Assembly (NCBI GenBank): GCA_029560585.1 | Contig: JAKQKQ010000201.1 | Span: 124,001 to 188,000 of the forward strand | Length of the DNA: 64,000 bases | Reading direction: 5' to 3' | From: Verrucomicrobiota bacterium | GTDB taxonomy: Bacteria > Verrucomicrobiota > Verrucomicrobiia > JADLBR01 | In this document: positions 31,959-47,017 of the stretch, one piece after another | How the letters are laid out: every line of letters begins with the position of its first letter | Position numbering within the stretch: the stretch's first letter is position 1 | Program-made: the position numbers and the translations under genes | Notes under the pieces: model-generated | What the model was told of the DNA's origin: nothing | Databases searched by the model: none | What the model saw: the letters and a program-made list of their open reading frames with translations, nothing else

Positions 31959-32612
31959 ATGGCAAACATCTTCCCGCGCTGGTCGAATTGGCTGCCGCTG
32001 CAAATCGCGGCGTGCCTGCTCGTCGCCGGGCCGCTCCTGGTGGTCGGGGTCACGTATTATTTTACCCCCAAGTACACCCGCATCGGCTACGAGCCGACCC
32101 AGCCGGTATCCTTCGACCACTCGCTGCATGTGACCCAGCTCGGCATGGATTGCCGCTACTGCCATAGCGGGGTCGAGGTCTCCTCCCATTCCAACGTGCC
32201 CAACACCCAGACCTGCATGAACTGCCACACTCATGTGCAGGCCACCAACCCCAAGCTCGCCCCCGTAAAGAGCAGTTTTGAGACGGGGCGGCCCATCGAA
32301 TGGGTCCGCGTCCACCAGGCGCCGGACTATGTGTATTTCAATCACGCGGTCCACGTGAACCGCGGCATCTCCTGCCGCGAGTGCCATGGCGAGGTCAACA
32401 AGATGACCGTCATCCGGCACGATCAGCCCATGAGCATGGGATGGTGCCTCTCGTGCCACCGCGATCCCGCCGCCAAGATCCGGCCCCTGGATAAAGTGTA
32501 CGACCTGACGTGGAAGGCGGAATCCCCGCAGGCACAGCTCGAGCAGGGGCGGCGCCTCGTGGAACAGTGGGATGTGAAACCGCCCCAAGATTGCGCGGGG
32601 TGCCACCGATGA
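31959..32612 (+). CDS. actA: Alternative complex III subunit ActA (pentaheme cytochrome c)
   Basis: Membrane-anchored multiheme cytochrome, 217 residues, that takes electrons from the quinol-oxidising core of alternative complex III. One N-terminal membrane helix (about 12-34) is followed by a periplasmic domain with exactly five CxxCH haem-binding motifs: CRYCH (65), CMNCH (86), CRECH (139), CLSCH (163) and CAGCH (212). Extra His residues (FDHSLHV, FNHAVHV) are likely distal ligands. The actB start overlaps its stop by four bases. Length, haem count and gene order fit ActA well. Confidence 0.93.
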   Translation: MANIFPRWSNWLPLQIAACLLVAGPLLVVGVTYYFTPKYTRIGYEPTQPVSFDHSLHVTQLGMDCRYCHSGVEVSSHSNVPNTQTCMNCHTHVQATNPKLAPVKSSFETGRPIEWVRVHQAPDYVYFNHAVHVNRGISCRECHGEVNKMTVIRHDQPMSMGWCLSCHRDPAAKIRPLDKVYDLTWKAESPQAQLEQGRRLVEQWDVKPPQDCAGCHR

Positions 32613-35600
32613 AATCCGACCTCCAGCACTCGAGCGCCACCGGCCGCCGCTACTGGAAGGGCCTCGATGAACTCGCCGGCACGCCCGAATTCGACCAGTG
32701 GCTCCACCGCGAATTCCCCGCCGGGGCCTCCGAGTTGGCCGCCGATGGCACGTCCCGCCGCGCATTTCTTCAGCTGATGGGCGCATCCCTCGGCCTCGCC
32801 GGTCTCGCCGGCTGCCGCCGCCCCGAGGCCCACATCGTCCCCTTCACCAAGTCCCCGGAATGGATGATCCCAGGTCGCGCGCTCCAGTACGCGACCGCCA
32901 TGCCCCGCCGCCGAGGCGCCATGCCCCTTCTCGTCACCACTTTCAACGGCCGCCCCACCAAGATCGAGGGCAACCCCCTCCACCCCATGAGCGGCGGAAA
33001 GACGGACACTTTCGCCCAGGCTTCCATCCTCGATCTCTACGACCCCGACCGCAGCCGCCAGATTCTTAAAGGCGGTGTTCCCTCCGACGCCAAGGCCCTC
33101 CAAGACCAGATCGCCGCGTGGCGAACGGCCTGGGCCGCGGACGGAGCCAAGGGCGTCGCCATGATCGCCGACGAGACCCTCAGCCCCACCCGACTCCGCC
33201 TCGCGGGCGAACTGCTCAAACAGTTCCCCAACATGACCGGCTGCATCCACGAGCCATTCCTGGACTGCGACGATGACCTCGAGGCCACGCGCGCCGCGTT
33301 CGGTCCCCGTGGCCACGCCGTCGTCGATTTCGGCAAGGCCGATGTCGTGCTCGCGATTGGCTCCGACTTCCTCGGTGCGGACGATGGCACGCTGGCGGAC
33401 GTGCGGGAGTTCTCGCTGCGCCGCCGCCCCGGCGAGGACGGCAAGGCAATGAACCGCCTCTACGTGGCCGAGCATGCGTTCACGATCACCGGTGGTTCGG
33501 CCGACCATCGCTTCCGCATCCCCGCCTCGCTCCTCCCACATTTCGCCGCGGAAATCGCGCGCGAATTGCTCAAGCAGGGCAAGGACAACGGCCTCCGGGA
33601 CGTCGTCGAGGCCATGCCGCCCGCGCCGCACTGGACCGAGACCCAGTCTGCCTGGATCCGCGAGTGCGCCAAAGACCTCGCCGCCCACGCGGGCCGCTGC
33701 GCCGTCGTCGCCGGCCTCGCACAGCACCGCGCCACCCAAGTCCTCGCACACGCGATCAACGCCTCGCTCGACAATGTCGGCAAGACCGTAACGCCCAAGC
33801 CCAAACCCGGATTCGATCCCAAAGAAAAAATCCTCGACCTGGCCGGGGTCGCCAGGCGCATCGCCGCCGGTGAGATCCACACGCTCTTCGTCCTCGGCGC
33901 CAACCCCGCCCACACCGCGCCCGCCGACCTCAACTTCGGCCAGTTGCTCAAGCAGGTGAAGACGGTGGTCCACCACGGACTGCACTACGACGAGACCGCC
34001 GAGGCCGCCCACTGGCACATCCCCGCGGCGCACTATCTTGAGTCCTGGGGCGACACGATCGCGCCCGACCATTCCCATTGCTCCATCCAGCCGATGATCC
34101 TGCCGCTGTTCGGCGGCTGGTCGCAGATCCAGCTGCTCGCCGCCCTCGCCGGCAAACCCTTCTCCGACGGCCCCGAAGAAGTCCAGGAAACGTTCCGCAA
34201 AAAGACCGGCATGGCCCCGGGTCCCGATTTCGACCAGGCCTGGACCCGGTTCGTGCACGATGGGTTCACCCACGTGGCTCGACCAACCAACCCGACCCCC
34301 GGCCAGTTCAACGCCGCCGCTGCCGCCAGCGCCATCAAAGGACATCTCCCCGCGGATTCCGCCCCGGCCCAGGAAAGCCTCGAGGTGGTTCTCGCCGCCG
34401 ATTACCGCGTGGACGACGGCAGGTATATAAACAACGGATGGATGCAGGAGTTCCCCGACCCCATCACGAAGCTGACGTGGGAGAATGCGGCGCTCATGAG
34501 CCCGGCCACCGCCAAGGCCCTCGACCTGCGTGTCCTGAGGCGCGGCGGCGTGGTGAAGGACGGCGTCACCGTCGGCCAGATCATCAAGATCGCGGTCGAT
34601 GGCCGTACGGTCGAGGCGCCAGTGCTCGAGGCCCCCGGCCATGCAGATAATTCCATCACCCTCCACCTCGGCTACGGTCGCAGGATCATCGGCAAGGTCG
34701 GCACCGGCAGCGGCTTCAACGCCTACGCCCTTCGCACCACCGACAGACCGCACGTCCTCACCGGCGCAAAGATCGAGAAGACCGGACGGGTGCACCGCTT
34801 CGCGGTCACCCAGGAACATCACTCCCTCGAGGGCCGCGACCACGTCCGCGAGGCTCCGCTGGAGCATTTTAAGAAGGCCCCCGACTTCGCCAAACATCTC
34901 GGCGTCCACAGCCCTCCGCTGAGAAACGCCTTCGAGTCTAAGCCATTCCTCACCGCGCCCCACCAGTGGGCCATGGCGGTCGATCTCTCGGCTTGCACCG
35001 GCTGCGGCACCTGCATGGTCGCCTGCCAGGCCGAGAACAATATCCCCATCGTCGGCGCCGAGCAGGTCCGAAACGGTCGCGAGATGCACTGGGTCCGCAT
35101 CGATCGCTATTTCACCAGCCACGAGGACTACAGCCCCGATCTCGGCACGGCGCCCTCGGATCCGGCGATGCTCAACCAGCCGGTCATGTGCCAGCATTGC
35201 GAGAATGCGCCGTGCGAGGTCGTCTGCCCAGTCAATGCCACCATCCACAACGAAGAAGGGCTCAACGTCATGGCCTACAACCGTTGTGTCGGCACGCGAT
35301 ATTGCGCCAACAACTGCCCCTACAAGGTCCGCCGCTTCAACTTCTTCGACTACAATCAGCGGCCCGTGCTCGAGCGCCACAGGTTCCTCGGTTTCGACAT
35401 CGGCGGGCTCTACTTCGGCCCCGCGCGCCCCAAGGGATCGCCCGAGACGCTCAAGCTACAGAAGAACCCCAACGTCACCGTCCGGATGCGCGGCGTGATG
35501 GAGAAATGTACCTTCTGCGTACAGCGGCTCGAGGCCGCAAAAATCGACCAGAAGGTCAAGGCGGGTGCCACGCCGAACGTGACTGTGCCCCCCGGCACTA

Positions 35601-35920
35601 TCCAGACCGCCTGCCAGCAGGCGTGTCCCGCCAACGCCATCACATTCGGCAACGAGAAGGACGCCGGAAGCGACATCGCCAGGGCGAGGAAAATGGTCCT
35701 CTCCTACGAGGTCCTCTCCTTCCTCAATACCCGGCCCCGCGTCTCTTACCTCGCCAAGATCCGCAACCCGAACCCCGCCATGCCCGGCGCCGAATACGTC
35801 GGCATGAGCTCCCTGCACGAGGCGCAGGACCACGGGCAATCCCGCGCCGGCGAACACGCCCCGGGACACGGCGGCACCGCGCCCCCTGAATCCACCGCTA
35901 AACCACACGGGGGGCATTGA
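32609..35920 (+). CDS. actB: Alternative complex III subunit ActB (iron-sulfur protein)
   Basis: Large periplasmic subunit of 1103 residues that joins a molybdopterin-oxidoreductase-like half without apparent cofactor to an iron-sulfur half. A Tat-type signal lies at about 46-70 ([22 protein letters not shown]), with a Cys that may be lipidated. From about residue 795 four Cys-rich groups appear: [42 protein letters not shown] with a later CQQAC. These suit three 4Fe-4S clusters and one 3Fe-4S cluster. The frame extends upstream to 32510, but the ATG at 32609 overlapping the actA stop gives the conserved N terminus. The C-terminal 40 residues are His/Gly-rich. Confidence 0.93.
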
Positions 35921-35922
35921 TC

Positions 35923-37464
35923 ATGGCCGACGCGATTCTCAATCCACCCGTGGCGCATCCCGACGCCCATCTCGTCGCCCGACAGCCGCTCGTCCTCAAC
36001 CGGCGGCCCATGGCATGGATCACCGAGCACGTCGCCCGCATCGTCGAGGACAAATCCAAGATGTGGTGGTGGATCTCTATCCTCATCACCGGCGCGATCG
36101 CATCCCTCGTCCCAATCGAATTGACCTACCTCGTCTCGACCGGCGTCGGCGTCTGGGGACTCAATCATCCCGTCGGCTGGGCCTGGGATATCACCAACTT
36201 CGTCTTCTGGATCGGTATCGGCCACGCCGGCACCCTCATCTCCGCCATCCTTTTCCTCACCCGCCAGCGATGGCGCACGTCCATCAACCGCTCCGCCGAG
36301 GCCATGACGATCTTCGCGGTGATCTGCGCCGGCATATTCCCCGCCTTCCACGTCGGCCGCCTCTGGATGGTCTGGTTCCTCGCGCCCGTCCCCAACGCCA
36401 ACGTCATTTGGCCCAACTTCAAGAGCCCCCTGCTCTGGGACGTGTTCGCCGTCTCCACCTACTTCACCGTCTCCCTGATCTTCTGGTATGTCGGCCTCAT
36501 CCCCGACTTCGCCACCATCCGCGACCGAGCCAGGGATCCCATCCGCAAGTTCATCTACGGGCTGCTCGCGCTCGGTTGGCGCGGTTCCAACCGCCAGTGG
36601 AGCCACTACGAGAAGGCCTACCTCGTGCTCGCCGGCATCTCCACCCCGCTGGTCCTCTCGGTCCACAGCGTCGTCTCCTTCGACTTTGCAACCTCGGTCA
36701 TCCCCGGCTGGCACACCACCATCTTCCCCCCCTACTTCGTGGCGGGCGCCATCTTTGGCGGCTTCGCCATGGTGCTCACGCTCCTCGTCCCCTGCCGATG
36801 GCTCTTCGGGCTCCAGGATCTCATCACCACCAAGCACATCGACAACATGTGCAAGATCGTCCTGCTCACCGGTACGATCGTCGGATACGCGTACATGATG
36901 GAACTCTTCATCGCGTGGTATTCCGGCAACCCGTACGAGTGGCACGCATTCCTCCGAAACCGCATCGCCGACCCCTACATCATCGGCCCCGCCACCGGCG
37001 TGCCCCCCGCCCCCTACTGGTGGGCCTACTGGACCATGATGACCTGCAACGTCCTCGCGCCCCAACTCTTCTGGTTCAAACCCTGCCGCCAGAAAGCCTG
37101 GATCGTGTGGATCATCGTGTGCTTCGGCCCGAACGTGGGCATGTGGTTCGAGCGCTTCGTCATCATCGTCACGTCGCTGCACCGCGACTTCATGCCCGGC
37201 GCCTGGGGCTACTTCGTGCCCACGATCAATGACATCCTCCTCTTCTCGGGCACCGTCGGACTCTTCGTTTTCCTCTTCCTGCTCTTCGTTCGCTTCTTCC
37301 CGATGATCACCATGTTCGAGGTCAAGGCCGTCCTCCCCGAGGCCGACCCCCACCACCTCCCCGAACCCCGTCCGCCACAAGGCCACAACGGCGGGGCCAT
37401 CCAAGGCGAAGTCCGCGAGATCCTCGCCCGGCGCGAGGCCAAGGCCAGGGGGGGCCACGCGTGA
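35923..37464 (+). CDS. actC: Alternative complex III subunit ActC (NrfD-like)
   Basis: Ten-helix membrane protein of 513 residues in the NrfD/PsrC family; it carries the quinol site of alternative complex III. Recognisable segments are [58 protein letters not shown] and [18 protein letters not shown] conserved His and Asp near the positive side suit quinol oxidation. The ATG at 35923 lies two bases after the actB stop codon with a G-rich tract before it. It overlaps actD by four bases. Confidence 0.93.
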
Positions 37465-38042
37465 GCGACGCCGCACAGCGCCGCCTCTATGGCTTCGCGG
37501 CGGAGTTCGCCTCCGCGGCCGCCCTCTACCACGCCGCGGAGAAGGTCCGCGACAAGGGTTTCCGCCGTTGGGACGTCCATTCCCCCTACCCCATCCATGG
37601 CATGGACGACGCCATGGGCCTCAAGGGATCCAAGGTGTCCCTGGTCTCTCTGCTCGGCGGCGCCACCGGCCTCACGCTCGCGTTCCTCATGATCAGCCTC
37701 GCCGGCGACGACCACGGCATCGTCAAGGCGATCATGGGCAACTTCAACTACCCCCTGATCGTGGCGGGCAAAACCCCATTCGACGTCGAACCATCCGTTC
37801 CCATCTTCTTCGAACTGACGATCCTCCTCACCGCCTTTGGCACCGTCCTCGGCCTGCTCCTGCTCGGCCGGATTCCCCAGCTCCACCATCCCATGTTCGA
37901 GTGGGATCGCTTCGAAAAGGTCACCGACGACGGCTTCTTCATCGCGATCCGCGCCGATGACGCCCTCTTCGACGAGGCCGAGACCCGCCAATTCTTGGAA
38001 GCCATAGGCGGCACCGCCGTGTCGCGCATCGAGGAATCCTGA
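37461..38042 (+). CDS. actD: Alternative complex III subunit ActD (DUF3341)
   Basis: Membrane protein of 193 residues with the DUF3341 pattern: a soluble head ([40 protein letters not shown]), then two hydrophobic helices (about 53-75 and 110-132) and a short tail. It starts with GTG at 37461, overlapping the actC stop. ActD helps hold ActC and the periplasmic subunits together. The final segment [16 protein letters not shown] matches the family end. Confidence 0.92.
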
Positions 38043-38045
38043 CCC

Positions 38046-38780
38046 ATGCGCGCGCTTCCCGTCATCAAGTGGTTCCTGGCCGGCCTCGCCATCACCGGCA
38101 TCGTGGGCCTGGCCATCTTTGGCTTCCGCGGTACGAGGTCATCGGCCCCGCCCATCGAGATCTTCCCCGACATGGACCGGCAGCCAAAATTCAAGTCCCA
38201 GCAGCCCTCCCCCTTCTTCGCCGATGGCCGCGCCGACCGCCCACCGGTCCCAGGCACCGTTCCTTTTGATGTCCCCGTCGATAACCCCTACCTCACCACG
38301 GGGATAATGGGCGACCGCTGGGGGGACGGGATCCCGCTGACGGTCGACCGCGCCCTCATCGACCGCGGCCAGCAGCGGTTCACCATCAATTGCCTCCCCT
38401 GCCACGGTGCCCTCGCCAATGGCAAAGGCATCGTCCAGCAGTACGGCTTCAACGTCATCGCAAACCTCCATCAGCCCCGGATCATCGAGATGGCCGACGG
38501 CGAGATCTTCAACACCATCACCCACGGCAAGGGCCAGATGGGCGCCTACCCGCACACCCGGCCCGAGGACCGCTGGGCCATCATCGCCTACCTCCGCGTC
38601 CTCCAGAAGGCCCGCAACGCCACAATTGCCGATGTCCCCGCCGCCGAGCGCGCGAAACTTGAGGCCGCCAAAGCGGAACCCGCTCCGGGCGCCACCAATG
38701 CCCCCCCCTCTGCCACATCGCCTCCAACCTCTAACGCACCACCCGCTGCGGTCCCCGCGCCCAGTCCCCCGAAGCCATGA
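38046..38780 (+). CDS. actE: Alternative complex III subunit ActE (monoheme cytochrome c)
   Basis: Cytochrome of 244 residues with an N-terminal membrane anchor (about 8-27) and one CLPCH haem motif near residue 118, followed by YGFNVIANLHQPRI and an ITHGKGQMGAYP loop that should supply the axial Met. The last 35 residues are a Pro/Ala/Asn-rich tail (ATNAPPSAT and further). Similar tails occur in two other proteins of this operon. It starts three bases after actD and overlaps actF by four bases. Confidence 0.92.
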   Translation: MRALPVIKWFLAGLAITGIVGLAIFGFRGTRSSAPPIEIFPDMDRQPKFKSQQPSPFFADGRADRPPVPGTVPFDVPVDNPYLTTGIMGDRWGDGIPLTVDRALIDRGQQRFTINCLPCHGALANGKGIVQQYGFNVIANLHQPRIIEMADGEIFNTITHGKGQMGAYPHTRPEDRWAIIAYLRVLQKARNATIADVPAAERAKLEAAKAEPAPGATNAPPSATSPPTSNAPPAAVPAPSPPKP

Positions 38781-40012
38781 GCGAACACACCGCCAGCGCC
38801 CCAGCCCCCGAGCGGTTCCGCCGAGCCTCGGCAGGCGCCCTGCCCCTCGCCTTTCTCGGCGGTGGCGCGCTCTGCCTGGCCATCGCGCTGGTGTGGGGCC
38901 TCGCCGTAGACCGTCAACAATTCGCCCACTCCTGGCTGCTCGGCTTCATGTACTGTTTCACGATCTGCGCCGGCTCGCTCTTCTGGATCCTCCTCCACCA
39001 TGCGGTCGACGCGAATTGGTCGGTCGTCGTCCGCCGCCTCTTCGAACACGTGGCCGCGCTCTTCCCCTATCTCGTCGCGCTCTTCATCCCGTTGCTCTTC
39101 TGCCTGCCCGATCTCTACCGGTGGCTCACTCTAGACCCTCTCGCCGATCACGCCCTCGCCCATAAATCCCCCTACCTCAACAAGGGCTTTCTCCTCTTCC
39201 GGCTCGCGTTCTACTTCCTCTATTTCACCTTCGCGGCCCTCCTCTTCAAAACGAAATCCGTCATGCAAGACGAGACCGGTGACCCGAGGCTGTCCCTGGG
39301 CATGCGCCGCTGGTCCAACGGCCTGATGCTGCTCTTCGCCGTATCAATCACGTTCGCCGGCTTCGACTTGCTCATGGCCCTTGATCACACGTGGTATTCG
39401 ACCATGTGGGGCGTCTACATCTTCGCGGGATCCGCGCTGTCCTCCATCGCCCTCACCATATTGGTCTCCTCCCTCCTGAGGGACGCCGGCTACCTCAAGG
39501 GCGTTCTCACCGTCGAGCACGACCACATCATGGGCAAGCTCATGTTCGCCTTCGTGATCTTCTGGGCCTACATCGGCTTCAGCCAGTACCTCCTCATCTA
39601 TTATTCCAACATCCCCGAGGAGACCCTCTTCTTTTTCCGACGCAACACCGGCTCCTGGCTATACGTCAGCCTCGTCCTGGTCGTCGGACACTTTATCCTG
39701 CCATTCCTGATCATCCTCACCCAACCCGCCAAACGCGGCGGGAAACGCCTCTTGTTCGCCGCGGGCTGGATCCTCTTCATGCACGCGGTGGATCTGTTTT
39801 GGATCATCGCCCCCTCCCTCCAGACGTACCGCGACCTCGCTGCCGGGGGCGGCGGCGACACATCCGGCTTTGCGATCCACCCCATCGACATCCTCTGCCT
39901 CCTCGGTTTCGTCGGGGTGCTCGGCGCCCTCCTCTTCCGAATGCTGGAGAAAACTGATCTCTTCCCATCGCGCGATCCCCGACTCATGGAATCCATCGCC
40001 CTCAAGAATTGA
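38777..40012 (+). CDS. actF: Alternative complex III subunit ActF
   Basis: Ten-helix integral membrane subunit of 411 residues, distantly related to ActC but lacking its quinol-site pattern. Typical stretches are SWLLGFMYCFTICAGSLFWI, HHAVDANWSVVVRRLFEH, SPYLNKGFLLFR and LTVEHDHIMGKLMFAFVIFW, the last followed by a GFSQYLLIYYSNIPEET loop that is strongly conserved in ActF. It belongs to the membrane arm of alternative complex III. The next gene begins two bases after its stop. Confidence 0.92.
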   Translation: MSEHTASAPAPERFRRASAGALPLAFLGGGALCLAIALVWGLAVDRQQFAHSWLLGFMYCFTICAGSLFWILLHHAVDANWSVVVRRLFEHVAALFPYLVALFIPLLFCLPDLYRWLTLDPLADHALAHKSPYLNKGFLLFRLAFYFLYFTFAALLFKTKSVMQDETGDPRLSLGMRRWSNGLMLLFAVSITFAGFDLLMALDHTWYSTMWGVYIFAGSALSSIALTILVSSLLRDAGYLKGVLTVEHDHIMGKLMFAFVIFWAYIGFSQYLLIYYSNIPEETLFFFRRNTGSWLYVSLVLVVGHFILPFLIILTQPAKRGGKRLLFAAGWILFMHAVDLFWIIAPSLQTYRDLAAGGGGDTSGFAIHPIDILCLLGFVGVLGALLFRMLEKTDLFPSRDPRLMESIALKN

Positions 40013-40014
40013 CC

Positions 40015-40545
40015 ATGGCCCCCGACCACCAGACCGCACCCCGCCGCCTCGGCCCCCTGGGCCTGACAGCCATCGTCGCGGGATTCCTGATCTTTGGCGC
40101 GGCAACGCTCTGGCTCCGAAATCAGCCGGCCGACCGCACGGACCTCGAAACCGACCGCGCGCAGCAACGCACCGAGCGACTCGCCAAGCTCCGCGAGAGC
40201 GACACCAAGGCCCTCGCCGAATACAACTGGGTCGACCGCGGGGCCGGCGTCGTTGGATTGCCCCTGGAGCGCGCCATCGAACTGGCCCTGCCACAGCTGA
40301 AATCAAAACCCGTCCGCCCCGGCCCCCTCATACCGCCCCCGGTCGCCACCAACGCCCCGCCCGCCGGCGCCACCAGCGCCGCACCTCCCACCGCCACGCC
40401 AAGCCCTGCCCCCACGAACGCCGCCCCCGCCGCCGCGCCAGTCGGACCCGGACCGTCCTCCTCCCTGTTCGCTCCACGCATCCATCTTCAAACTTCTGCC
40501 TCCGAGCTTCCATCTTCCGTCTTCCGCCCGCCATCCATCCTATGA
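40015..40545 (+). CDS. Small membrane-anchored protein of the act-cco operon
   Basis: Protein of 176 residues with one N-terminal helix (about 18-37). A short soluble motif, YNWVDRGAGVVGLPLERAI, resembles small proteins I know only from act and cytochrome oxidase operons. A long Pro/Ala/Thr/Asn tail (about 105-150) follows. No haem or metal motif is present. It overlaps the ccoS-like start by ATGA. It is probably an assembly or linker subunit between alternative complex III and the oxidase; function unproven. ATG 40015 is preferred over an in-frame TTG at 40009. Confidence 0.7.
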   Translation: MAPDHQTAPRRLGPLGLTAIVAGFLIFGAATLWLRNQPADRTDLETDRAQQRTERLAKLRESDTKALAEYNWVDRGAGVVGLPLERAIELALPQLKSKPVRPGPLIPPPVATNAPPAGATSAAPPTATPSPAPTNAAPAAAPVGPGPSSSLFAPRIHLQTSASELPSSVFRPPSIL

Positions 40546-40778
40546 CGACCGCCTACCTCATCCTCGGGTTTTCGCTCGTCGCGTTCGGCGCGATGGCCGT
40601 GACCGCGCTGGTCTGGGCGGCCCGCGCCGGTCAATTCGAGAACTTCAAGGCGGGCTCCGAATCGATCTTTGACTCCGGCGAGCCCATCGGGGAACCCACC
40701 GACGTCTTCCCCGGCATGAAACGCTCGCTGCTCGCCGGCAGTCCAACCCGCGCCATGAAAGGGCCCCCAAGACCGTGA
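40542..40778 (+). CDS. ccoS: CcoS-like cbb3 oxidase assembly protein
   Basis: Small protein of 78 residues. One N-terminal membrane helix (ILGFSLVAFGAMAVTALVWA) is directly followed by RAGQFENF, matching the helix-then-GQFDD pattern of CcoS, a cbb3 maturation factor. The tail is longer than in typical CcoS (about 50-70 residues) and ends basic. It overlaps its upstream gene by four bases, and the GTG start of ccoN (40775) overlaps its stop. CcoS identity is inferred from pattern and position. Confidence 0.65.
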   Translation: MTTAYLILGFSLVAFGAMAVTALVWAARAGQFENFKAGSESIFDSGEPIGEPTDVFPGMKRSLLAGSPTRAMKGPPRP

Positions 40779-42313
40779 GCCAAACCAGTGGAAACAACCC
40801 GGCGGGCGCCATGCCCCCGCCCACCGATGCCGCGGAGCGCGCCTACATCGACCGATCGTGCCGTGCGCCGGTCCTCTTCTTCTTCGGATCGGCACTCTTC
40901 TGGTTGCTCGTGGGCACGTTCTTCGCGCTCGTTACGTCCATAAAGCTCCATGATCCCGAGTTCATGACCCGCGCACCCCTGCCGGATGTCGCCAAGTTCC
41001 AGGCGGGTGGATCACTGAATGCGAATCCCATCTCGATGCAGGACGTCGGATTCCTCACCTTTGGACGCTTCCGGGCCTCGCACCTCAATGCGGTCGCCTA
41101 CGGCTGGGCTTCTTCCGCCGCCATCGGGGTCGGCGTTTGGCTCATGGCGCGCCTCTGTCGCGTCCCGCTCCGCCGCCCCGCGCTCGTTACGACCGCCGGT
41201 GTCCTGTGGAACATAGGTATCGCCGTCGGCATAGCCGGCATCCTCGCCGGCCAAAGCACCTCCGTCGAATGGCTGGAGTTCCCGCCCTACGCCGCGCTCA
41301 TCATCGGGATCGCCTACGCCATGATCGCCGTCTGGGCCGTGGACATGTTCGCGTCGCGGCAATGTGACCACGTCTACGTGACGCTCTGGTACGTGCTCGC
41401 CGCCTTCTTCTGGTTCCCCTGGCTGTATGCTACGGCCAACATCCTGATATTGCTCAAGCCCGTGCAGGGCTCCGTGCAGGCCATCGTCAACTGGTGGTTC
41501 GGGCACAACGTCCTCGGCCTCTGGTTCACCCCCATCGGCATCGGCGCCGCTTACTACATGATCCCCAAGGTCATCGGCCGACCCATCCACAGCTATTATC
41601 TTTCCGCCATCGGTTTCTGGTCGCTCGCCCTATTCTATTCCTGGAACGGGGGGCACCACCTCATCGGCGGACCACTGCCCGCCTGGGTGATCACCGCCAG
41701 CATCGTGGCCAGCGTCATGATGGTCATCCCCGTGGTCGTCACCGCGGTCAACCACCACATGACCATGCGCGGCCACTTCGGCATGCTGCGCTACAGCCCG
41801 ACCCTCCGCTTCATCGTGTTCGGCGCCATGAGCTACACGCTCGTCAGCCTCCAGGGCAGCTCCATGGCCATTCGTTCCCTCAACAAGATCTCCCATTTCA
41901 CCCACTACACCATCGGCCACGCGCATTTTGGGCTCTACGCGTTCTTCACCATGGTCATGTTCGGCTGCATGTACTACATCGTGCCGCGGCTCTGCGGCTG
42001 CGAGTGGCGCTCCGCCTACCTCATCCGCCTGCATTTCTGGGCGGCCGCCTACGGCATCTTCTTCATGATCATCGCACTCACGGTCGGCGGCCTCGTCCAG
42101 GGCCTCATGCTCGCCGATCCCGCCAAGGATTTCGTCGGCGAGATCGTCCCGATGACAAGGCCCTATCTCGTGGGACGATCGCTGTCCGGCGTGCTCCTCA
42201 GCATCGGCCACGTCGTTTTCGCCTACCATTTCATCCTCATGGTCCTCCAGCTGGGTCGCCGCGAGGGCGGGCCAGTCTATTTCAACCCCGTCGAGGCGGA
42301 GGTGCGCCCATGA
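40775..42313 (+). CDS. ccoN: cbb3-type cytochrome c oxidase subunit I (CcoN)
   Basis: Catalytic haem-copper oxidase subunit of 512 residues with about 12 helices. Haem b ligand His lies in RFRASHLNAVAYGW. The Cu-B region reads WWFGHNVLGLWFTPIG with the Cu-B His and then GGHHLIGGP with two more Cu-B His. The haem pair ligands lie in HFTHYTIGHAHFGLYAF. This arrangement is that of C-family (cbb3) oxidases, which have high oxygen affinity. It starts with GTG at 40775 overlapping the previous stop and ends overlapping ccoO by ATGA. Confidence 0.94.
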   Translation: MSQTSGNNPAGAMPPPTDAAERAYIDRSCRAPVLFFFGSALFWLLVGTFFALVTSIKLHDPEFMTRAPLPDVAKFQAGGSLNANPISMQDVGFLTFGRFRASHLNAVAYGWASSAAIGVGVWLMARLCRVPLRRPALVTTAGVLWNIGIAVGIAGILAGQSTSVEWLEFPPYAALIIGIAYAMIAVWAVDMFASRQCDHVYVTLWYVLAAFFWFPWLYATANILILLKPVQGSVQAIVNWWFGHNVLGLWFTPIGIGAAYYMIPKVIGRPIHSYYLSAIGFWSLALFYSWNGGHHLIGGPLPAWVITASIVASVMMVIPVVVTAVNHHMTMRGHFGMLRYSPTLRFIVFGAMSYTLVSLQGSSMAIRSLNKISHFTHYTIGHAHFGLYAFFTMVMFGCMYYIVPRLCGCEWRSAYLIRLHFWAAAYGIFFMIIALTVGGLVQGLMLADPAKDFVGEIVPMTRPYLVGRSLSGVLLSIGHVVFAYHFILMVLQLGRREGGPVYFNPVEAEVRP

Positions 42314-42930
42314 ACCGGATGCGCAACCTCTTCATCGGCTTCTTCGCCACGTTCATCTGCTCCTGGCTCGGGCTCGTGCTCGCGCCCCACATCCAGTTCG
42401 GGGGCCTCAAGGAATACCTCAACGAGGATGACAACCAGTACCTCCCACCGGCCCGCACCGGGCTCGCCGAACGAGGTTCCCAGGTGTACGCCGCCAACGG
42501 CTGCATCTACTGCCACACCCAGCAGGTTCGCCCCGCCCACCAGGGCTACGACTTGGCCCGCGGCTGGGGAGCCCGACGAACCGTCGCCCGCGACTACATC
42601 CACGATCGACCGCATTTCCTCGGAACGATGCGAACCGGCCCCGATCTCACGAACATCGGCCACCGCCAAAACAGCGTGGCCTGGCACCACAAGCACCTCT
42701 TTGCGCCCGCGACGGTGTCCAAGGGCTCGATCATGCCGCCGTTCCGGTACCTGTATAGAAAGCAGCGCATCGTCGGCGCGCCCTCCCCCGACGCCCTGCA
42801 GATCGAGGGCCCCGACGCCCCCGAGCCCGGCTTCGAGATCGTCCCGACCGAGGACGCCAAAGCCCTCGTCGCCTATCTCGTTTCCCTGAACCGCATGTAC
42901 CCTCTGCCAGAAGCCCCGGTGGACCAGTGA
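42310..42930 (+). CDS. ccoO: cbb3 oxidase monoheme subunit CcoO
   Basis: Membrane-anchored cytochrome c of 206 residues. One N-terminal helix (about 8-27) and a single CIYCHTQQVRP haem site near residue 61, which is the CcoO signature. GTMRTGPDLTNIGHRQ and IMPPFRYLYRK supply the Met-ligand loop. It overlaps the ccoN stop (ATGA). It transfers electrons to the haem b/b3 site of CcoN. Length and motifs are canonical. Confidence 0.94.
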   Translation: MNRMRNLFIGFFATFICSWLGLVLAPHIQFGGLKEYLNEDDNQYLPPARTGLAERGSQVYAANGCIYCHTQQVRPAHQGYDLARGWGARRTVARDYIHDRPHFLGTMRTGPDLTNIGHRQNSVAWHHKHLFAPATVSKGSIMPPFRYLYRKQRIVGAPSPDALQIEGPDAPEPGFEIVPTEDAKALVAYLVSLNRMYPLPEAPVDQ

Positions 42931-42940
42931 GGATCTCGCG

Positions 42941-43813
42941 ATGGCCGACGACTTGAGACCCCCGCCAGAAGCCCACGACATCGATCCCACCCTGCCCGGA
43001 GTGGACTACTCCGAGCGCGTGAGTGTCACTGGCATCCACGCCGCCGTCCTGAGGGAGAAAATCGAACCGCGCGAGGGCATGGAACCCATGCCGATCTGGC
43101 TGTGGCTCGCCGTCTCCCTGCTCATCGGCTGGGGTGGCTGGTACCTCGGGACTTTCTCCGGCGGCTATCGCGCGGACAATTTTGACGAGCGCATCGGAAG
43201 CGCCATCGCCGGCGGTGCTGTCGCCGGGACTGCCGCTGGCGGCACGGCTGCCAAGGAGGATCCCGCCGCCGCCTTCGCCAAACTCGGCAAACGCCAGTTC
43301 ACCGCAAACTGCCAGTCCTGCCACCAGGCCACGGGCCTCGGCCAAGCCGGCGTCTATCCGCCGCTCGCCGGTTCGGAGTACGTGCTCGGCAACAAAAAGC
43401 GCGTCATCGCCATCGTCCTCAAGGGCCTCCAGGGTCCGTTCAAGGTCAAAGGCAACACCTACAACAACGTCATGCAGTCATGGGAACCGGTCCTGGATGA
43501 CAAGAAGATCGCCGCCATCCTCACCTACGTCCGCAACGAGTGGGGCAACAAGGCCGAACCCATCACCCCGGAAGAAGTCGCCGCCGTCCGCGCCGAATTC
43601 GCGTCCCGCAAGGTCGCCTGGACCGAGGCCGACCTGCTAGCCATCCCCGAAAACGCCACCATCAACGTCGCGCCGGCCACCAATGCCACGCCGCCCGCCG
43701 CCGCCCCATCGGCTCCGACCCCGGCAGCTCCCGCCCCACCGGTCCCCGCCCCGAAGGCCCCGAGCCCGGCGGCCATAGCCCCACAGGCACCGGCCGACCG
43801 GCCCTACACTTGA
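42941..43813 (+). CDS. CcoP-like membrane cytochrome c with a single haem
   Basis: Cytochrome of 290 residues, last gene of the operon. It has a cytoplasmic N-terminal stretch, one helix (about 50-70), a globular domain with one CQSCH haem site (near 122-126) and a later VMQSW Met loop. The C-terminal 60 residues are a Pro/Ala-rich tail. Canonical CcoP has two haem motifs; only one is present here, so this is a reduced version of that subunit or a different donor cytochrome. The position right after ccoO argues for a CcoP role. Confidence 0.82.
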   Translation: MADDLRPPPEAHDIDPTLPGVDYSERVSVTGIHAAVLREKIEPREGMEPMPIWLWLAVSLLIGWGGWYLGTFSGGYRADNFDERIGSAIAGGAVAGTAAGGTAAKEDPAAAFAKLGKRQFTANCQSCHQATGLGQAGVYPPLAGSEYVLGNKKRVIAIVLKGLQGPFKVKGNTYNNVMQSWEPVLDDKKIAAILTYVRNEWGNKAEPITPEEVAAVRAEFASRKVAWTEADLLAIPENATINVAPATNATPPAAAPSAPTPAAPAPPVPAPKAPSPAAIAPQAPADRPYT

Positions 43814-43907: not shown

Positions 43908-44990
43908 CTACCTGCCCGCCGCCATGCGGATATCCACCGTCTCCCCGGGCATCAGCTGGAGCCCCTTGGGCAATCCGATCAGCATCGGCAGGCCGTACTC
44001 GCTCACCCCATCCTGCAGTGCCACCGGCAACAGCGCCGGATTGATCATCTCAAGTTGGGTGCCCACCTGCAGGACCTTGGCCATGGCCGAGGCGCGCCCG
44101 GAAGAGCGAGACCGGACCTCCACCGAGTCGCCAACCTTGGGCTTGATGTTCAGCGGCTGGCGCACGAACCCGACGATGCGCTCGGACTCGGTGCTGCTGA
44201 CAAGCACGATCGCGTCCCCGCGCACCACCTTCTCGCCCTTGCGCTTGTAGATCGCGCTGATCATGCCCGCGATCGGCGCCTTGATCACCTGCGGCTTGGA
44301 CGCCATCCTGATGGCGTCCTGCTTGCCCTTGATGGCCCGCACGATGGGATCCGTTTCGCTGGCCGCTCCCGACGCATCGTCCGGGGGCTTCAGTTTCACG
44401 AGGCTCGCCTCCATCTCGGAAATAAGCGTGTCCAATTGCGCCACCTTCTCTTGAAGCGAGTCCCGCGTGGTCTTCGCCAGATCATGCTCCGACTCCGACA
44501 CCGTCCTCTCTTTGAGGAGCTTCTCGGACCGCTGGAACTCCGTGATCGCATGCTGCAGGTTCACATTCTCCGCGGCACGCTCCACCCGCCGCATCGCCAG
44601 CCCGTGTTTCAGGCTCTCGTAGTCTTCCAGGATGCGCACATTGCTTTGCCGCAGGCGCTCCTCCAAGATCACCAGGTCCGCCTCCTCGCTCCGAATGGTG
44701 GCCTGCACCGTGTCATCCTCCATGACGCTGACGACCGCGATCGGGTCATCTTTTGCCACCCGCTGCAACAGGTCCACCTTGAGGTCTAAGATCTCGCCCG
44801 GCGCCGTCGCCGTGATGCTCGATCGCACGATCTCCACCTCCCCGACAATGACGGGGGGCGCCACGTGACCCATCCAAAGATTGATCGAGCACCCGAGCAC
44901 CAGGACGAATACGATGACCGGCAGATAGCTGCGCCGGAATTCATCCCAATAATAGGCTTTGGGGCTCGGGATTTTTGGCAACGCGCTCAT
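43908..44990 (-). CDS. HlyD-family membrane fusion protein
   Basis: Protein of 360 residues with one N-terminal helix (about 22-42). It is followed by the first half of a biotinyl-lipoyl domain (VGEVEIVRSSITATAPGEIL, LLQRVAKDDPIAVV). A long coiled coil comes next (about 95-215, many Glu/Arg/Leu), then the second lipoyl half (VIKAPIAGMISAIYKRKGEKVVRGDAIV) and a beta-barrel domain. It normally bridges an inner-membrane pump and the outer membrane, but no pump is encoded next to it. It is followed upstream by DUF4956 and VTC genes on the same strand with only 10-base spacing, so it likely belongs to their system. Confidence 0.85.
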   Translation of the reverse strand: MSALPKIPSPKAYYWDEFRRSYLPVIVFVLVLGCSINLWMGHVAPPVIVGEVEIVRSSITATAPGEILDLKVDLLQRVAKDDPIAVVSVMEDDTVQATIRSEEADLVILEERLRQSNVRILEDYESLKHGLAMRRVERAAENVNLQHAITEFQRSEKLLKERTVSESEHDLAKTTRDSLQEKVAQLDTLISEMEASLVKLKPPDDASGAASETDPIVRAIKGKQDAIRMASKPQVIKAPIAGMISAIYKRKGEKVVRGDAIVLVSSTESERIVGFVRQPLNIKPKVGDSVEVRSRSSGRASAMAKVLQVGTQLEMINPALLPVALQDGVSEYGLPMLIGLPKGLQLMPGETVDIRMAAGR

Positions 44991-45000
44991 GGATGAACCT

Positions 45001-45687
45001 TCAGATCTCCGACTCGTCCTCCGCCCTCATGCTGACGACACGGGACACCCCCGCCATCGCCTTGAGTTCAGTCAACAGATCCTGTTCGCGGAGCGAGTCC
45101 CGGAGCATCAGCCGATAACTGACTTCAGCCCCCTCCTCACCCTCGCCCGTCCTCTGGCCCGCGCACTGGATCCTACGGCTATGCCGTTCCAGCAACCGCA
45201 TCAGGTCACCCAGATCCTTGATCGGCCGCCCCCACCGGAGGTTTAGGATCAGATTATACCGGTGCCGCTCCCCAAACATGCTCAGGTTCAGGTAAAGCAA
45301 GACCGCGGAAACCACAAGGCAGGTGGCCACCGCCGCCGGAAACCGGTGGGTGCCCGTGCCCATGCCAATAACGATGGCCGCCAGAATGAAGGCGGTATCC
45401 AGGGTGTCGCGCAGGATGTTTCGAAACCGCACGATCGCAAAAACCGCCATCAGGCCGAACGCCGTCACCAGATTGTTTGACAGGACCATCATCACACCCG
45501 TCACGATGATCGGCATCACGATCAATGCGTTGACAAACGACTTGGAATAGGAGAGGCCCGAATGCGTGTATATGTACACCCAGGCGATCACGTGCCCCCC
45601 GAGAAACGCCAGGCAAAAGGCCAAGAGCATCGCCGGCAAATCCATCGGCTGCGCGGCATAATCGCCTCTCAGAAACGCCTCTAACAT
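45001..45687 (-). CDS. DUF4956 membrane protein
   Basis: Membrane protein of 228 residues. Four or five hydrophobic helices fill about 18-145, with the DUF4956 hallmark FGLMAVFAIVRFRNILRDTLD between them. A soluble C-terminal domain (about 150-228) has an RYNLILNLRWG strand and a ferredoxin-like pattern. DUF4956 proteins are typically encoded beside VTC-domain polyphosphate polymerases, as here, and are suspected to help translocate or regulate the product. Weak ribosome-binding site; the start is 25 bases after the VTC stop. Confidence 0.85.
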   Translation of the reverse strand: MLEAFLRGDYAAQPMDLPAMLLAFCLAFLGGHVIAWVYIYTHSGLSYSKSFVNALIVMPIIVTGVMMVLSNNLVTAFGLMAVFAIVRFRNILRDTLDTAFILAAIVIGMGTGTHRFPAAVATCLVVSAVLLYLNLSMFGERHRYNLILNLRWGRPIKDLGDLMRLLERHSRRIQCAGQRTGEGEEGAEVSYRLMLRDSLREQDLLTELKAMAGVSRVVSMRAEDESEI

Positions 45688-45712
45688 AGTCGGTTCTTCG
45701 CCCGTGAGCCTC

Positions 45713-46570
45713 TCAATCGCAACACGTCAGGGAAAACGCCCTGCGCTCCATGGCCCGCACCTGCGCCACGCCCGGCCGGTTGCAGCCCAGTCGGGAAAAC
45801 CTCTCTTCCCCAGCGATGCAGATCCCGTCCACGTATTTCGCCGCCGAACACTGCACCAAACCAAAACCCCGGACCAGATCCTTGAACCAGTGCGGGTATC
45901 GGCCGGTGAATTTCAACTCCAGGATCACGTGTTTGGCGGCCGGCGGAGGCTCAAAGCGGTTTGGATTATCGAAAGGGAATGCGGGATCGACCATGTCGGT
46001 CGTCAGATTCACCGTGTGATCTGGACAGCATCGCACGTTGCGGTCCATCGTGACCCGGACAGAGTTGCTCGCGGGACTGATCCATGCCTCTCGCTCGTAT
46101 GCGACGTGTGCCGTCGGGCCCGCCTGGCTTCGTCTCATCAGATCGCAAAAATGCCGCACCGCCATCCAATGCTTCGTGTTCTCCTCATCAATCATCATCC
46201 GGGGTGTCGGGCATTGCCCCGAGAGGATCGCGCCCACGTACCCCCGCATCACGGCCCCCCGCTCCTTCGATATCGAATTGTTCATCCGCCGCTTCGTTTC
46301 GAAATAAACCGGCGCGTCCGGATCGCCATTGTAGAACCTGACTCGCAATTTGAAGCGGTTCTTGTCCCCATTGATCGTGCTCCAATAGCTCTGAAGATCG
46401 TCGGAATCCAAATAGAGACTGTGCACCGGATACGACAGATTCTTGAAAGTGGCCCCAAATTCATCGATGACCAGATAACTGCTGACGAATTTCCGCACCT
46501 CCAGCGCACGCTCCTCCCGAATAATGTACTTCAATTCAAGGCGCTGCAGCTGAAGACGGTCAGTTAACAT
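45713..46570 (-). CDS. VTC-domain protein, probable polyphosphate polymerase
   Basis: Cytoplasmic protein of 285 residues with the VTC tunnel fold that, in eukaryotic Vtc4 and some bacterial homologues, makes polyphosphate from ATP. Charged tunnel residues are all present: ELKYII (start), FKLRVRFY, YFETKRRMNNSISKER, YEREAW, RVTMDRNV and ILELKFTG. The length equals a lone VTC core, without SPX or membrane domain. First gene of a three-gene minus-strand set with DUF4956 and the fusion protein. Family is certain; the actual product (polyphosphate or another nucleotide-derived phosphate) is inferred. Confidence 0.88.
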   Translation of the reverse strand: MLTDRLQLQRLELKYIIREERALEVRKFVSSYLVIDEFGATFKNLSYPVHSLYLDSDDLQSYWSTINGDKNRFKLRVRFYNGDPDAPVYFETKRRMNNSISKERGAVMRGYVGAILSGQCPTPRMMIDEENTKHWMAVRHFCDLMRRSQAGPTAHVAYEREAWISPASNSVRVTMDRNVRCCPDHTVNLTTDMVDPAFPFDNPNRFEPPPAAKHVILELKFTGRYPHWFKDLVRGFGLVQCSAAKYVDGICIAGEERFSRLGCNRPGVAQVRAMERRAFSLTCCD

Positions 46571-47017
46571 TGCCAGTGTCGCCTCAAATCTTGTCTCAGG
46601 TCATCGTCACCGATTCGACCACACTATTAGCGTAATGCATCAGGGGCCCCACGTCCATCCGGATTGCTCTGATGAGCAACCGTCTCTGCGCGCGTGCGAA
46701 AAACGGTGCCGCCCGAATCCCCCAGCCCGCCCGATTGAACATGCGGCAGTCCCGCACGGTCCGGCGAACCCCGCGGCACACCGGCGATTCGAGAATCCAG
46801 TTCCTTGGGGTATTTCGTACGCAAAGCGTTTATTTATAATATGTTATGAGTTCCATTGGCGGTGTCCGCGTGTGGGTCTCCAGAGCTATCGCGCTCCCGT
46901 AGCCGTGGAATTGCGTGACGGATCACCGCCAATCCGGTGATCCGCATCTTGGGCTGCGGAGTCCGAACGCGCTCTTGTCGCGGACTGGAGAGCATGCCAA
47001 ACTTTTGGGTTAGCGAT
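46571..47017. other. Divergent intergenic region upstream of uvrA
   Basis: About 450 bases between VTC and uvrA, no convincing gene. The AT-rich part 46825-46855 includes a TATAAT box. I looked for an SOS (LexA) operator near it and found no clear CTG-N10-CAG or GAAC-type palindrome. Confidence 0.5.
46835..46840 (+). promoter_or_regulatory. Putative -10 box for uvrA
   Basis: Perfect TATAAT in a locally AT-rich patch, about 180 bases before the preferred uvrA start. There is no good -35 at the expected distance (best TTTCGT at 16 bases), so it may need an activator or be fortuitous. Confidence 0.4.

Follow-up and report, generated by a model that had tools for sequence, protein, structure and literature searches.

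The genome of a Verrucomicrobiota bacterium carries three adjacent genes, for a VTC-domain protein, a DUF4956 membrane protein and an HlyD-type periplasmic adaptor, that near certainly form a conserved unit: this arrangement is repeated at 34 loci of a phylum-wide sample and at 74 of 80 loci from an independent scan, more than chance would give. The VTC protein has a conserved Vtc4-type active site, the adaptor has an adaptor fold with a TolC-docking motif, and in many relatives a TolC-family gene follows the adaptor gene. This polymerase-membrane protein-adaptor unit is a concrete and strong candidate for a polyphosphate secretion machine, in which we infer polymerase activity, a channel function of DUF4956, physical coupling of the parts and export itself. 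Extracellular polyphosphate is known in bacteria, and we know of no dedicated bacterial machine for its export. The literature searched likewise contained no such machine and, among the papers listed, no description of the triple (VTC or polyphosphate polymerase together with HlyD or adaptor), and seldom mentioned DUF4956.

The unit lies on the minus strand of the 64,000-nucleotide stretch analysed here (the window), and according to the ORF calls it is transcribed in the order VTC, DUF4956, HlyD, with gaps of 25 nt and then 10 nt. The first gene (45713..46570) encodes a VTC-domain protein of 285 aa (Pfam PF09359, E=1.1e-38), a predicted ATP-dependent polyphosphate polymerase; the second (45001..45687) a DUF4956 membrane protein of 228 aa (PF16316, E=4.2e-12), the proposed inner-membrane channel; and the third (43908..44990) an HlyD-type periplasmic adaptor, or membrane fusion protein, of 360 aa, identified by an AF2 model, Foldseek and NCBIfam. 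Both neighbours run on the opposite strand: on one side a cytochrome-c gene ends at 43813, and on the other uvrA starts at 46937. The intergenic region divergent from uvrA (46571..46936, no strand assigned) is the presumed promoter site of the unit; no sigma-70-like promoter was matched in it, and a promoter and terminator scan gave nothing convincing. The compact set that an earlier note on this DNA had described is thereby confirmed as three isolated, co-directional ORFs, and the note's remark that the HlyD-type protein comes without a pump holds at this locus, where neither ORFs nor Pfam matches revealed an adjoining pump gene (ABC, MFS or RND) or TolC gene. No pump family recurs in the flanks of relatives: the 25 Pfam families most often found in 111 flanking ORFs include no ABC, MFS or RND transporter, a result that, since the ORFs come from a greedy caller, tests for recurring pumps and does not prove that pumps are absent. 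The plus-strand respiratory cluster that ends just before the HlyD gene (32510-43813) encodes a 4Fe-4S protein, an NrfD-like protein, c-type cytochromes and COX1, and looks like an alternative complex III with an oxidase.

The source genome (7.06 Mb, 336 contigs, 95.7% complete) has a single copy of the VTC gene. PPK1 is also present, as it is in nine relatives; we accordingly reject the idea that the VTC unit replaces PPK1, and the presence of a second polymerase suggests a separate destination for its product. Several TolC-family (OEP) genes lie elsewhere in the genome. There are also two CotH genes, both away from the unit; a CotH-domain gene (G000:C254:57637-58425) stands on the same contig about 110 kb from the triple, outside the window, with no link to the triple shown.

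The distribution of the unit was examined in two ways. DUF4956 was found in 57 of the 289 genomes of the phylum sample, and the neighbourhoods were labelled with HMMs built from the families themselves. VTC is near 66 of the 69 DUF4956 ORFs, and HlyD lies directly 3' of DUF4956 on the same strand at 34 loci, nearly all with gaps of -19 to +37 nt; the other main arrangements are VTC-DUF4956-CotH (20 ORFs) and VTC-DUF4956-Porin_O_P (6). The VTC-DUF4956 pair, which the earlier note had called known and sometimes joined by CotH, is thus near-constant, while CotH proves to be only an alternative or additional partner and no part of the core. With the window's HlyD as a protein query, matches were obtained in 49 genomes, the strongest outside the window adjoining DUF4956. 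The independent scan searched 84,980 species genomes with a DUF4956 alignment (A1), and the best 80 of 434 confirmed relatives were kept; HlyD is 3' of DUF4956 in 74 of these 80 loci, most commonly at a distance of 4 nt, and two of the six exceptions end at a contig edge. Among the same best 80 of 434, the closest records that bear a name belong to uncultured Verrucomicrobiota, several of them under the label Pedosphaera or Limisphaerales; as most of the genomes were assembled from metagenomes, organism labels may in some cases be wrong. The earlier note had counted confinement of the triple to this genome as a refutation of its reading; the triple is instead widespread, occurring in about 100 examined Verrucomicrobia genomes, although the loci counted are related and do not represent independent events. 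The flanking genes of window-type loci vary, and no extra conserved operon genes were found in the window's subfamily. Across 91 complete triples, the distance matrices of the three proteins correlate at 0.81-0.87 (at least part of which is accounted for by shared genome ancestry), with median identities of 47% for VTC, 57% for DUF4956 and 29% for HlyD.

The VTC protein is probably a polyphosphate polymerase, judging from its residues. It scores 133.6 bits against PF09359 (cut-off 23), and a PDB sequence search matches it to the catalytic domain of yeast Vtc4 (3g3q, E=2.4e-4). Among the VTCs of HlyD-bearing loci, the positions aligned to Vtc4 K200, R264, R266, K281, K294, Y359, R361, R373 and K458 are invariant in all 102 sequences, whereas K300 and K455 have no conserved counterpart. 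K458 is a catalytic residue of Vtc4 but dispensable in a tripolyphosphatase, and Vtc4 has basic residues in place of the acidic patch on which hydrolytic tunnel enzymes depend for a second metal (PMC4641920). The corresponding feature here is the invariant E218-L-K220 (45911..45919, minus strand), combining the metal glutamate with a basic replacement of the second acidic-patch glutamate; E218 and K220 are conserved in 102/102 HlyD-type and 33/33 other VTCs, E218 being equated with Vtc4 E426 by the ExK motif, as the HMMER alignment is shifted at this point. Two of the three ygiF-type site-2 positions are basic and invariant (R10 and K220), while the third retains its acidic residue (E12). A hydrolytic tunnel enzyme is disfavoured by the replacement of two acidic-patch glutamates by R10 and K220, and these replacements, together with the invariant Vtc4-type residues, favour a polymerase. 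PF09359 and PF16316 were the only Pfam matches in the VTC and DUF4956 proteins, with no SPX domain and no Vtc1-type (DUF202) membrane domain found. In the literature searched, no bacterial VTC-domain polymerase had been demonstrated biochemically.

The DUF4956 protein would serve as the inner-membrane channel for the chain. Its AF2 model (62 sequences, mean pLDDT 80.5) has predicted helices at residues 17-41, 49-68, 73-87, 95-112 and 116-136, followed by a C-terminal ferredoxin/ACT-like domain. Between the third and fourth of these helices (73-87 and 95-112) lies a cluster of basic and acidic residues, R87-F88-R89...R93-D94...D97 (45397..45429, minus strand), that does not vary among 24 sequences from across the phylum or among 62 close relatives. 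Foldseek gives weak PDB matches (best E=2e-3), which fall on the soluble domain and include ribosomal S6, ACT domains and the MgtC C-terminal domain; no solved homologue was found for the membrane part. The C-terminal domain matches that of Mycobacterium tuberculosis MgtC (2lqj) with probability 1.00 and E=7e-3, alongside numerous generic ferredoxin-like and ACT folds. Like the MgtC/SapB family, DUF4956 has membrane helices followed by an ACT-like C-terminal domain; it differs in having no match to the MgtC Pfam family (only PF16316), and the fold match is weak and limited to the soluble domain. This ACT/MgtC-like regulatory resemblance suits a sensor as well as a channel.

The third protein is, on its structure model, a periplasmic adaptor of MacA/EmrA type with a TolC-docking motif. 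Its Pfam match to HlyD_3 is sub-threshold (7e-4), and the NCBIfam models MdtN, EmrA and RND_mfp give E values of 2e-9 to 7e-8, all well below their cut-offs. In the AF2 model (52 sequences, mean pLDDT 89.9), an N-terminal helix (residues 11-42), barrel-sandwich parts, a long hairpin (93-160/166-200) and a beta barrel can be recognized, and Foldseek finds MacA (9qgy, E=2.7e-17) and EmrA (8zal, E=1.2e-16); global TM-scores are modest (0.38-0.47), as expected for flexible multi-domain adaptors. We regard the identity of the protein as settled by the NCBIfam adaptor models and the modelled structure taken together. At the hairpin turn, residues 154-165 (RSEKLLKERTVS; 44496..44531, minus strand) form the pattern RxxxLxxxxxxS, the RLS motif that contacts TolC in MacA, AcrA and HlyD (PMC3391258). 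R154 is kept in 92, L158 in 87 and S165 in 70 of 97 relatives. Since an RLS-like pattern anywhere in the protein is expected by shuffling in as many as 42 of 97, what counts is that the motif is conserved at one aligned position, the tip of the hairpin.

Outer-membrane partners appear in many relatives. At 20 of the 34 phylum-sample loci HlyD is followed by an OEP gene on the same strand, and six of these 20 also carry CotH. Pfam confirmed the identity of representative OEP, CotH and porin proteins, with one OEP group of the two scoring just below the cut-off (18.7 vs 22 bits). Convergent OEPs occur at two window-type loci (L154 and L172) and next to the triple in the sister genome (L108). The last has no match at E<=1e-3 in the source genome or in six other genomes, so that no dedicated OEP partner elsewhere in the genome can be named from it.

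These parts suggest the following route. The VTC tunnel enzyme would make polyphosphate from ATP in the cytoplasm and feed the growing chain into DUF4956, which would stand in for the membrane channel that the yeast VTC complex contains; HlyD would extend the path across the periplasm and dock on an outer-membrane channel of the TolC family, whose gene belongs to the operon in many relatives and here would lie elsewhere in the genome. The drive would be polymerisation itself, and such a push would explain the absence of an ABC, MFS or RND pump. Synthase-driven export is the simplest reading of a VTC protein that has no recognised membrane domain, has a constant membrane partner, has an adaptor as the third component and often has a TolC-family protein as the fourth. 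We give polymerase-driven polyphosphate export by the complete path from VTC through DUF4956 and HlyD to TolC about an even chance, and a somewhat lower one, a little short of even, to a polymerase-powered tripartite exporter that would thread nascent polyphosphate to the cell surface. The polyphosphate export route proposed in the earlier note gains from the Vtc4-type active site, the MacA/EmrA-like adaptor with its RLS motif, the OEP genes at 20 of 34 loci and a Hymenobacter locus described below, and is weakened by the lack of an operonic TolC gene in the window's subfamily. Points against export also include the non-conservation of K300 and K455, the retained E12, the ACT/MgtC-like domain, the lack of VTC at the Hymenobacter locus and a deletion result for the streptococcal VTC gene SIR_1593. 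If export is confirmed, bacteria would have a dedicated polyphosphate secretion machine with chain growth in place of the usual pump, TolC-adaptor systems would extend to a case with no energised transporter, and the large DUF4956 family would gain a role.

In synthase-dependent exopolysaccharide export (cellulose, alginate and Gram-negative Pel), a processive cytoplasmic synthase drives the polymer across the envelope with no separate pump. The parallel with the proposed polymerase-driven export is one of working principle; the polymerase fold, the product and the periplasmic and outer-membrane parts are all different. With tripartite TolC-dependent systems and type I secretion the unit shares a MacA/EmrA-fold adaptor bearing an RLS motif and, at 20 of the 34 sample loci though not in the window, a TolC-family partner gene, but it has no ABC, MFS or RND transporter, and DUF4956 would be the inner-membrane partner and the polymerase the drive. 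The eukaryotic VTC complex (Vtc1/Vtc3/Vtc4), in which cytosolic polyphosphate synthesis is coupled in yeast to passage through the complex's own membrane channel (PMC9911596), has the same catalytic tunnel domain and catalytic residues, and in both systems the polymerase would pair with a membrane channel receiving the nascent chain. Unlike it, the bacterial polymerase has neither SPX nor a DUF202/Vtc1-type membrane domain, the membrane part falls to a distinct protein from a different family, DUF4956, and a periplasmic adaptor is added.

The main alternative is that polyphosphate is moved to the periplasm alone, as a store, metal chelator or phosphate donor, with HlyD acting as a periplasmic receptor or anchor and no conduit to the outside. 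We consider this unlikely, although the window-type operon has no OEP gene (no same-strand OEP at any of the 80 loci kept from the 434 scan relatives), Porin_O_P or CotH stands in the adaptor's place in other Verrucomicrobiota, and PPK1 is available for cytoplasmic polyphosphate. Against it, the hairpin-tip motif is kept even where no OEP gene is at hand: the full R-L-S/T set is present in 57 of 76 loci with no nearby OEP (and in 8 of 21 with one). The adaptor may then dock on a channel of the TolC family whose gene lies elsewhere, and the genome has several. At six Verrucomicrobiota loci (L064, L066, L068, L069, L070 and L071), the gene that follows VTC-DUF4956 in place of HlyD encodes a Porin_O_P-type outer-membrane protein.

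Polyphosphate export by the VTC unit also has to be weighed against what DUF4956 does in other settings, which were followed beyond Verrucomicrobiota in plasmid records. On a plasmid of Hymenobacter volaticus (Bacteroidota; NZ_CP095062.1, L221, 3772-7012), genes for an adaptor-like protein, DUF4956 and a TolC-family protein follow one another, and the 10.6 kb read contains no VTC; the first protein was recognized as an adaptor from weak matches (NCBIfam HlyD 6e-6, hhalign 4e-6) and from reading its sequence. DUF4956 may thus partner adaptor/TolC systems in the inner membrane more widely, and the three-gene set at that locus may carry something else. In the Gram-positive Planococcus and Nonomuraea, the arrangement is VTC-DUF4956-CotH, with no adaptor within the stretch read; the appearance of outer-membrane parts in Gram-negative loci fits an envelope-crossing role, on the few examples outside the phylum. 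On pSymA of Sinorhizobium meliloti (L222, 3260-5630), a DUF4956 gene with no VTC match nearby adjoins an ORF of 538 aa that looks from its sequence like a caspase-type protein. Streptococcus intermedius mutants lacking the DUF4956-type gene SIR_1592 aggregate less and have more cell-associated Pel, whereas mutants lacking the VTC gene SIR_1593 still aggregate, with no aggregation phenotype reported (PMC12345266). The Hymenobacter, Sinorhizobium and Streptococcus observations, together with the hint of sensing in the MgtC/ACT-like domain, speak for a general DUF4956-HlyD-TolC export or sensing unit with another substrate (metal, lipid, peptide or glycan), VTC being a coupled regulator or energy source and not the producer of what is carried. 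We think this rather improbable, as the almost invariable presence of VTC beside DUF4956 in the phylum sample, with its active site invariant, fits a working polymerase at the centre of the system.

A further reading gives exported polyphosphate a use, as the phosphate donor with which secreted CotH-family kinases phosphorylate surface proteins or glycans. CotH accompanies 20 VTC-DUF4956 loci that lack HlyD and six HlyD loci in the phylum sample, two CotH genes lie elsewhere in the source genome, and Gram-positive Pel clusters carry cotH-polyphosphate polymerase-DUF4956 groups (PMC7112168, PMC12345266); but the window locus and most HlyD-type loci lack CotH, its use of polyphosphate is hypothetical, and we find the reading very unlikely. 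Those Gram-positive groups share the VTC-DUF4956 pair with the window locus, which differs in having an HlyD adaptor and neither Pel genes nor CotH. Their position beside pel operons, as in streptococci and bifidobacteria, is the argument for an accessory role in making Pel or another exopolysaccharide, a most improbable explanation here: PelG is absent from all eight genomes tested (the source genome and seven relatives), by which a Pel role is rejected for this lineage, and no glycan-synthesis family recurs among the commonest families of the flanks. One genome carries two separate VTC-DUF4956-CotH units within about 10 kb (L111 and L112, G158:C79).
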